From assembly GCA_018711685.1 (NCBI GenBank), contig DVHZ01000161.1, positions 1 through 32,068 on the forward strand: a stretch of 32,068 bases of DNA, read 5' to 3'. Within the stretch, counting starts at the first letter, position 1. Each line of letters opens with the position of its first letter. The notes under the pieces are model-generated. The model did not search any database, had not been told where the DNA came from, and worked only from the letters and a program-made list of their open reading frames with translations. The translations under genes were made by a program, and so were the position numbers. Of the stretch, positions 13,249 to 15,240 are shown piece after piece. The stretch comes from Candidatus Excrementavichristensenella intestinipullorum (GTDB lineage Bacteria; Bacillota; Clostridia; Christensenellales; Aristaeellaceae).

Positions 13249-13280
13249 TGACATATATTTACTGATAAATTATTTGTCAT
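13249..13280. promoter_or_regulatory. divergent promoter region with TGACA/TGTCA dyad
   Basis: TGACA (13249-13253) and TGTCA (13275-13279) form an interrupted dyad that extends over several A/T bases. On the minus strand ATGACA (13275-13280) and TATATG (13252-13257), spaced by 17 nt, could be the -35 and -10 for the secreted/ABC cluster. Its -35 would then overlap the -35 of the plus-strand sigma promoter. This would leave a leader of about 230 nt before the start codon at 13016. Confidence 0.4.
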
Positions 13281-13302
13281 TTTTTAAGTACTATGCTATA
13301 AT
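13274..13302 (+). promoter_or_regulatory. promoter of the sigma/anti-sigma gene
   Basis: TTGTCA (13274-13279) and TATAAT (13297-13302) are 17 nt apart, and TG one base before the -10 makes it an extended -10. It looks like a housekeeping promoter rather than an ECF self-promoter. Confidence 0.75.
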
Positions 13303-13341: not shown

Positions 13342-14823
13342 ATGTCGCGAGAAGAAATCATTGGCCAGCTCATGGAGGGCAAATATGGCGAAATTTACCA
13401 ATGCCTCATGAACGACGCCCGCGCATTTGCACCGGATGCCCCCCTGGATGAAGTGGAAGACTGCCTTCAGGAGGCGTTTCTGCTGCTGTACAGCCAGTGG
13501 CCCAAGTATCAGAATATAAAAAATCTGCCGGGTTGGCTGTATGTCACCGCGCTGAATGCCCTGAGAAACCGGGAGCGGCTCTATCGGGCCCGGAGCAAAA
13601 CGGTGACGGCCAGCTTGGACGATGACAGCGGCGCCCTGCAAAGGGCCGCCCAACGCCTGGACCAATGGGAATGGGCCCAGGCCGCCGAACAAGAATGGAT
13701 ACAGGACGGGCTGCAGAGCATTCGCCAGTGCGTCAGCCAGCAGGAATACGCCTTCCTCTTGGAATGTTTTCGTGGAAAAAACGCCATGAAGCAGATGGCC
13801 CAGGACCAAAACCTCAGCGAGGCCGGCATCCGCAAGCGGAAGCAGCGGGTAATCGATAAGATTAAGCGCCAATTATTTAACATGATATTAACTATTATCC
13901 TGTCACAATTGGGCTTCTCCGTTACACTTTTAAGTGAGGGGAGTATAATGGAGAAAAAAACGCAAGTCCAGGGGGAAGGCCATCCCGATGATGAAGCCCC
14001 GAACCAAGCAGCGCCCTTAAGCAAGGAAAGCGCCGCAGTGGTGGCGGAATTTTTGCGCAGCTTGCCCGCCGATGTATTCGACGAAAGGTGCCTGCGCCTG
14101 CTGTGCCTTTGCAACCGGATTACCGACGCCCAGTTCGGCAAGGACCCGGTGGACGTAGAGGCGGCGATCCGGGAACACAAACGGCGGGTAGCCCAGTATG
14201 AGGCCCAAAAGAGAAGGGAGGCGGCAAAAAACCGGCGCATTGGGCCCAAGGCGGCGGCGGCGCTCATCGCGGCGGCCTGCCTGGTGCTGGCCGGGGCGGT
14301 GTGCTATGGCCTGGGCTGGACCCCCTGGCGCATCTTCACCTGGCAGGATGATGAGCACTACAATTACACCATTTACTCTGGTTTGGACAGCGCCACGGAC
14401 CCCTATACCGCCTTCCAGCCCACCGGATTGGACCAGGAACTGGACCGGCTGCTCCAGCAGTACGAGATCTACCTGCCCCTGCCCACCTGGATTCCCCAGG
14501 GCTACGGCAAGCCCGAGTTCGAGATCGACGTGGTGGATATGATGATCTCGTTTGGGGCATATTTCCCGAAAGATGATCACTATTTGTCCATGGTTATTCA
14601 CAAGGACCTGCCTGGATTTGAAGGCGTCGAGGATGGGTACATGGAAAAAGATAATGACTATTACGAGGAATATACGGTAGCTGGAAACACGTTTATTATT
14701 GTTAGCAATGTAGGAAGATTACAAGCCAAATGGTTTGAACAGCCCTATCAGCTCTTGATTACCGGCCGGGTAACGCCGGATGAAATGCATAGCATTTTGG
14801 ACTCTATATTTGAAAGGGGCTAG
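13342..14823 (+). CDS. ECF-type sigma factor fused in frame to DUF4367-like membrane anti-sigma protein
   Basis: One 493-aa open frame contains two normally separate proteins. Residues 1-175 are an ECF sigma: region 2 has DEVEDCLQEAFLLLYSQW and LPGWLYVTALNALRNR; region 4 spans about 125-175 and ends in SEAGIRKRKQRVIDKIKR. A hydrophobic stretch (181-200) follows. From Met203 an anti-sigma-like protein runs: a soluble segment, a basic stretch (RRVAQYEAQKRREAAKNRR), a membrane helix at about 303-325, and an outer DUF4367-like domain (YLPLPTWIPQGYG to a terminal PDEMHSILDSIFERG). An internal GAGGGGAG followed by ATG at 13948 would allow separate translation of the second part. The ATG at 13342 follows GGGAGGG. 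It is divergent from the ABC modules, whose regulation it may control. Confidence 0.82.
   Translation: MSREEIIGQLMEGKYGEIYQCLMNDARAFAPDAPLDEVEDCLQEAFLLLYSQWPKYQNIKNLPGWLYVTALNALRNRERLYRARSKTVTASLDDDSGALQRAAQRLDQWEWAQAAEQEWIQDGLQSIRQCVSQQEYAFLLECFRGKNAMKQMAQDQNLSEAGIRKRKQRVIDKIKRQLFNMILTIILSQLGFSVTLLSEGSIMEKKTQVQGEGHPDDEAPNQAAPLSKESAAVVAEFLRSLPADVFDERCLRLLCLCNRITDAQFGKDPVDVEAAIREHKRRVAQYEAQKRREAAKNRRIGPKAAAALIAAACLVLAGAVCYGLGWTPWRIFTWQDDEHYNYTIYSGLDSATDPYTAFQPTGLDQELDRLLQQYEIYLPLPTWIPQGYGKPEFEIDVVDMMISFGAYFPKDDHYLSMVIHKDLPGFEGVEDGYMEKDNDYYEEYTVAGNTFIIVSNVGRLQAKWFEQPYQLLITGRVTPDEMHSILDSIFERG
13935..13950 (+). promoter_or_regulatory. internal ribosome site and start codon for the anti-sigma half
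   Basis: GAGGGGAG is followed 4 nt later by ATG (13948-13950), in frame with the upstream sigma part. The two other frames stop just before it (TAA 13931, TGA 13935). It looks like the start site of an originally separate anti-sigma gene. Confidence 0.6.
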
Positions 14824-14826
14824 TCT

Positions 14827-15240
14827 ATGGGAAAGAAATATTACCTAATCATTGTATTGATTTTGATTCTTACTATTCCTTCTATAGGTTTAGCGAATAG
14901 TATTATGCCTATGTCAAATCCCACAATAACAGAAGCAACTCTAACCATTCGAAAAGCATCTGGGAATTTGATTACGGCGAAAGCAGTAGTCGAGGCGGAT
15001 ACGGTCATGGATTCCATCGGCGTCAAATCGCTGGTAATCCAGGAGAACGACGGCAGCGGCTGGCAACCGGTGAAAGGGCCGGTCACGGACTTGAAAGTAT
15101 CTGTAAGGAAGAACACGGTAACGTTAAGCTTCACCGGCACGCCCGGCTACCGGTATCGCGCCAAGGGGACCCTTTACGCGGCCAAGTCGGGCTATCCCAC
15201 CTACAGCGTGGCGAAAACCTCTGGTACGGTTACCCGGTAG
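14827..15240 (+). CDS. small secreted protein downstream of the anti-sigma protein
   Basis: This 137-aa exported protein has a basic start (MGKKYY), the core LIIVLILILTIPSIGL and a likely cleavage after LA or ANS. The mature region of about 110 aa alternates beta-type strands (ATLTIRKASGNLITAKAVVEA, NTVTLSFTGTPGYRYRAKGTLYAA). It resembles the many small secreted beta-sandwich proteins of Clostridia, whose function is unknown to me. It starts 3 nt after the anti-sigma stop, with AAAGGGG upstream, so it is almost certainly cotranscribed and possibly coupled. The first 170 nt are notably A/T-rich compared with the rest. It could be the ligand, a toxin or a cell-surface target of the system; none of these is shown. 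Confidence 0.75.
   Translation: MGKKYYLIIVLILILTIPSIGLANSIMPMSNPTITEATLTIRKASGNLITAKAVVEADTVMDSIGVKSLVIQENDGSGWQPVKGPVTDLKVSVRKNTVTLSFTGTPGYRYRAKGTLYAAKSGYPTYSVAKTSGTVTR

Follow-up and report, generated by a model that had tools for sequence, protein, structure and literature searches.

One open reading frame joins an ECF sigma factor to a DUF4367 anti-sigma factor in Candidatus Excrementavichristensenella intestinipullorum

When a sigma factor and an anti-sigma factor are found in one reading frame, does the frame specify a single working chain, two products, or the remains of two ordinary genes? We considered this question for a gene on the forward strand of a 32,068-nucleotide stretch of DNA from Candidatus Excrementavichristensenella intestinipullorum (the whole of this stretch is called the window below), using family models, profile comparisons, a second copy of the gene in the same genome and surveys of related genomes.

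Domain content of the fused frame

The frame at 13342-14823 (copy 1) is uninterrupted for 493 aa and ends with TAG; TIGR02937, Sigma70_r2 and DUF4367 all match this one chain, which bears out the first-pass annotation of a sigma factor and an anti-sigma factor joined without a stop. Its start codon at 13342 has a strong Shine-Dalgarno (SD) sequence (-10.8 kcal/mol), and the candidate promoter upstream matches 11 of 12 consensus positions, with a TG ahead of the second hexamer (Table 1). The sigma part is matched by TIGR02937 with 48.5 bits (residues 8-178, above the cut-off) and by Sigma70_r2 with an E-value of 1.2e-5 (residues 36-77, above the Pfam gathering score); region 4 gave no separate Pfam match, and the profile of the domain matches solved ECF sigma chains, for example 6dv9_F. 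On these family models copy 1 can be assigned to the ECF sigma factors of the sigma-70 family.

The anti-sigma-like domain aligns with a profile of 13 stand-alone anti-sigma N-termini from relatives (hhalign probability 96%, E 3.4e-9) from the conserved Cys region through the transmembrane (TM) helix, its first helix being less certain, and DUF4367 (PF14285) matches the chain with an E-value of 1.3e-4. With a C-terminal DUF4367 after a single strong TM helix and a related N-terminal domain, this half has the make-up of a DUF4367 anti-sigma factor and is predicted to inhibit the sigma factor. An AlphaFold2 model of the full chain, made with five sequences, had a pLDDT of 51.6 and was too poor for a fold search or for judging a contact between sigma and anti-sigma parts.

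The 137-aa protein encoded downstream has no Pfam family; it shares 24% identity (E 5e-10) with the protein that follows separate sigma and anti-sigma genes in another genome (G1032, locus L102). As the third gene of that operon is related to the downstream gene of the window, the single fused gene occupies the position held elsewhere by two.

Table 1. Features of the fused locus in the window, and split pairs in related genomes
Feature	Position or locus	Strand	Basis or remark
Housekeeping-type promoter TTGTCA-17-TATAAT	13274..13302	+	5' of fused gene; consensus match only
Fused gene, copy 1	13342..14823	+	ECF sigma, anti-sigma domain, TM and DUF4367 in one ORF
ECF sigma domain, regions 2 and 4, residues 1-176	13342..13869	+	TIGR02937, Sigma70_r2, profile against structures
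Hydrophobic stretch 1, residues 177-199	13870..13938	+	marginal; probably inherited sigma C-terminal tail
Linker from sigma to anti-sigma domain	13870..14016	+	49 codons
Internal SD GAGGGGAG and ATG 13948, in frame	13936..13950	+	possible second start, unproven
Anti-sigma-like domain, residues 226-302	14017..14247	+	profile match to stand-alone anti-sigmas; 60% identity to paralogue
TM helix (stretch 2), residues 303-325	14248..14316	+	hydrophobicity; basic residues N-terminal of helix
DUF4367 sensor domain, residues 380-489	14479..14808	+	PF14285 above gathering score
137-aa protein, signal-like N-terminus	14827..15240	+	probable operon partner; starts 4 nt past fusion stop
Split sigma/anti-sigma pair	UBA5327: L050 (same locus as L021)		adjacent genes
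Split sigma/anti-sigma pair	Candidatus Faecaligallichristensenella: L051 (same locus as L022)		adjacent genes
Split sigma/anti-sigma pair	G026: L012, L135		adjacent genes
Split sigma/anti-sigma pair	G1032: L102		adjacent genes
Split sigma/anti-sigma pair	G948: L103		adjacent genes

A second fused copy, and separate genes in relatives

The same genome carries a fused paralogue of 498 aa (copy 2; L002:1471-2967, on contig C144) with the same domain order and no stop, 62% identical to copy 1 along the whole chain, the sigma domain of which scores under the TIGR02937 cut-off. The sigma-DUF4367 fusion is thus real and occurs at least twice in this genome. A third DUF4367 copy (L003, G000:C144:75165-75671) lies 54 bp upstream of copy 2 and is cut inside its TM helix by the contig end; only these three DUF4367 genes were found in the genome. 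When the surroundings of the two fused loci were compared, the gene upstream of copy 1 (360 aa) proved unrelated to the one beyond copy 2 (398 aa).

Between copies 1 and 2, dS is 1.24 in the sigma part and 0.92 in DUF4367 and, judged from these values of about 1, the fusion is not recent, which removes one of the options offered by the first-pass annotation. Both copies are under selection, with dN/dS of about 0.35 in the sigma and anti-sigma domains and 0.10 in DUF4367; the far stronger constraint on the sensor suggests one signal with diverging outputs. The sensors of the three copies are 82-84% identical to one another, whereas in their sigma and anti-sigma parts copies 1 and 2 differ by half. 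The linkers differ in length by 21 nt, a multiple of three (42 codons in copy 2), and share 31% identity, so that their sequence is not conserved; both are nevertheless open, for which, together with a length difference in whole codons, a rough shuffle estimate gives a chance of 1.6%.

In the nearest relatives, sigma factor and DUF4367 anti-sigma factor are encoded by two neighbouring genes, separated by stops (Table 1). Five of these split pairs (L050, L051, L102, L103 and L135) have the domains and order of the fusion, and L102 shares the third gene as well; unlike the fusion, they consist of two genes with a stop and a start between them, and their identity to it is 22-26%. A profile search covering the family (308 genomes), the order (396) and the class (391), in all about 1,040 different genomes, showed no second sigma-DUF4367 fusion among the matches listed above the stated E-values. 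Surveys with the DUF4367 model in 396 order and 398 phylum genomes gave, among the matches listed above the stated E-values, frames typically of about 200-430 aa and only one other long one, a 684-aa protein of G017 (L174); with a signal-like N-terminus, DUF4367 at its C-terminal end and no sigma domain, it was rejected as a further fusion. The fused gene had no sequence relatives in viral contigs, nor in a single-sequence scan of genome contigs. No paper joining DUF4367 with a sigma factor was found in the literature searched, a limited library, so that this says little.

Internal start, topology, decay and assembly error

ATG 13948, codon 203 of copy 1, is preceded in frame by GAGGGGAG with a spacing of 4-5 nt (SD -7.7 kcal/mol), as had been pointed out. 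This SD is equalled or bettered at 25 of the 182 in-frame internal ATGs of genes in the window, and taken alone it is therefore not beyond chance. With it the frame could yield two products, the full chain plus a free DUF4367 anti-sigma factor adding inhibition in trans, a reading that we regard as possible but unlikely. SD and ATG sit at the exact domain boundary, this boundary is AT-rich and looks intergenic (GC down to 0.34 around 13875-13964), and the product from 13948 would have 291 aa, like the stand-alone anti-sigmas of relatives (285-303 aa). Yet the start is not conserved in the paralogue: after Met177, copy 2 has no ATG, GTG or TTG until GTG codon 225, and that codon falls within the anti-sigma domain; a product begun at Met177 itself would carry the hydrophobic stretch N-terminally. 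A good SD occurs there only before codon 218, a CTG where the anti-sigma domain begins (CGGGAGGA, -10.3 kcal/mol), which might be a rare start. Because copy 2 lacks a matching start and SDs of this quality are common, a second product, as favoured by the first-pass annotation, is possible for copy 1 but finds no support as a conserved feature. It is doubtful that one gene yields both a tethered, self-inhibited sigma factor and a free anti-sigma factor, with translation setting the ratio of inhibitor to sigma above one. At 13921-13949 there is also a promoter-like GTTACA-17-TATAAT; its -10 overlaps ATG 13948, which excludes it as the promoter of a transcript beginning upstream of that ATG.

The two hydrophobic stretches noted earlier are near the places given for them (residues 178-197 and 303-325 on the hydrophobicity scale), but they are not equivalent. 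Stretch 2 of copy 1 (Kyte-Doolittle 2.31, approximate insertion energy -1.2) is a strong TM helix flanked by charges of +5 before and -2 after, whereas stretch 1 (1.78 and an approximate apparent insertion energy of +1.8) is marginal; in copy 2 the approximate energies are -1.7 (strong) and +1.1 (marginal), all of them taken from a simplified scale rather than from a trained predictor. When 19 stand-alone sigma factors of relatives were inspected by eye, eight had a hydrophobic C-terminal tail (L012, L022, L024, L030, L038, L075, L134 and L135, three of the eight from one genome), two were borderline and nine had none. These tails, of 9-19 residues, stand at the same position as stretch 1 (for example HPEIFYILILLLSGF in L038 and KELFFCLVSLVALGMGMK in L134). 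They commonly follow a motif like HPEIF or KELF, and a contact with the membrane or with the anti-sigma factor is possible.

Stretch 1 is thus probably an inherited sigma tail. Being marginal and like the tails of unfused sigma factors, it does not have to span the membrane in the fused chain; DUF4367 would then stay outside, and the paradox of an inward-facing sensor, which had been argued from two membrane spans, would vanish. That both stretches do span the membrane, leaving the anti-sigma domain outside and DUF4367 inside, or that copy 2 has a cleaved signal-like sequence in its stretch 1, is very unlikely: each stretch is hydrophobic with basic residues N-terminal of it, and stretch 1 of copy 2 resembles a signal sequence and ends in PAAALAG, but the insertion energies set stretch 1 well apart from stretch 2, a two-span topology would separate inhibitor and sigma across the membrane, and the DUF4367 at the end of the L174 protein, behind a signal-like N-terminus, fits a location outside.

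It is highly improbable that the locus is decaying, its sigma/anti-sigma pair merged into one chain and its regulation lost. Pfam does not detect sigma region 4, the sigma score of copy 2 is low and evolution is faster in the sigma domain than in the sensor; against this stand the dN/dS values in both parts, the lack of stops across about 490 codons in two copies, and the strong SD and promoter-like sequence of copy 1. Scarcely credible, finally, is an assembly or sequencing error that erased the stop between two ordinary genes, for although relatives do have two genes with stops and the copy 1 linker contains four stops in each of its two remaining frames, the coding frame is open throughout with no indel scar, and the diverged paralogue on another contig, likewise one open frame, largely refutes a loss of the stop by error alone.

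A membrane-held sigma factor and its known counterparts

We consider it likely that 13342-14823 encodes one functional chain, a sigma factor held at the membrane, self-inhibited and freed by proteolysis. Its order would be sigma factor, hydrophobic tail with flexible linker, anti-sigma domain, one TM helix, and DUF4367 outside the cell. The anti-sigma domain would inhibit the attached sigma factor in cis at the membrane's inner face. A signal acting on DUF4367 would lead to cleavage outside and, by a site-2 protease, within the membrane, the anti-sigma part would be trimmed further, and the sigma domain would become free for RNA polymerase. Inhibition in cis, topology and release by proteolysis are inferred; what the data show are the domains, the open frame, the second fused copy under selection and the split genes of relatives.

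Several findings count for this single chain: the linkers of two strongly diverged copies are both open, with a length difference divisible by three, copy 2 offers no ATG, GTG or TTG for a coherent free anti-sigma factor, the anti-sigma domain and TM helix match those of stand-alone anti-sigmas, stretch 2 is strong with positive charges inside whereas stretch 1 is marginal, and precedents exist in IutY and ECF52 (PMC5411451, PMC5826349, PMC8999054). Counted against it are the SD and ATG at the domain boundary of copy 1 with its intergenic-looking linker, and the poor conservation of linker sequence between the copies. The genome has a site-2 protease gene (PF02163, E 1.9e-57), but so do 14 of 14 control genomes, and being near-universal it argues only weakly for proteolytic release. 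On cytosolic release the sigma factor would stay joined to the anti-sigma domain, so that one more cleavage has to be assumed.

As the sensors are near-identical and the sigma and anti-sigma parts have diverged, one may speculate that fusion benefits the cell by forcing cognate pairing among three paralogues, which may prevent cross-talk; the two fused copies would allow this idea to be tested. The hydrophobic tails of unfused sigma factors in the clade raise the testable question of whether sigma factors contacted the membrane before any fusion. If the single-chain reading is true, sigma/anti-sigma modules of the DUF4367 type can become one-component membrane receptors, in parallel with separate events in Pseudomonas (IutY) and Actinobacteria (ECF52).

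Tethering as a way to keep a sigma factor inactive is less unusual than first supposed. Fusions of sigma and anti-sigma factors are known in ECF243, ECF48, ECF52, ECF53 and part of ECF36 (PMC8999054), and chains of sigma factor, TM helix and ectodomain recur among class-level relatives; they come from several genera, one of which has four of these chains. We rejected these chains as further fusions, since L117, L120, L121, L109, L089, L093 and L131 have other domains, L133 has a weak DUF4179 match and L132 other sequence. Their ectodomains include BspA repeats, DUF5640/lipocalin-like domains and the weak DUF4179. Five of them (L109, L117, L120, L121 and L133) resemble copy 1 in an ECF sigma factor anchored via a C-terminal TM helix to an outside domain; they differ in that no anti-sigma domain is recognised, the outside domains are others and the sigma parts are distant.

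IutY of Pseudomonas putida (ECF243), a natural sigma/anti-sigma hybrid for which release by two proteases has been shown, is like copy 1 a single chain in which a membrane helix links an N-terminal cytosolic ECF sigma factor to a regulatory part outside (PMC5411451). It has one TM helix right after the sigma factor, and its FecR-like periplasmic domain takes its signal from a TonB-dependent receptor, whereas copy 1 has an anti-sigma domain between sigma factor and main TM helix, a DUF4367 sensor and proteolysis that is only predicted; Pfam finds no FecR-type domain in copy 1 but DUF4367 instead, which places it outside ECF243. ECF52 (SCO4117 of Streptomyces coelicolor), ECF48 and ECF53 proteins, like copy 1, run from sigma factor through an anti-sigma-type domain and a TM helix to an outside domain (PMC5826349, PMC8999054), release by proteolysis having been proposed for ECF52 (PMC8999054). 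In ECF52, which is confined to Actinobacteria, the anti-sigma domain is a zinc finger and a carbohydrate-binding module is present; by contrast, no zinc finger is detected in the anti-sigma domain of copy 1, the sensor of copy 1 is DUF4367 and its host clade is related to Christensenella. As Pfam finds only Sigma70_r2 and DUF4367 in copy 1 and its relatives are Christensenella-like MAGs, it does not belong to ECF52 either. This kind of fusion has precedent, and the version with DUF4367 is what is new.
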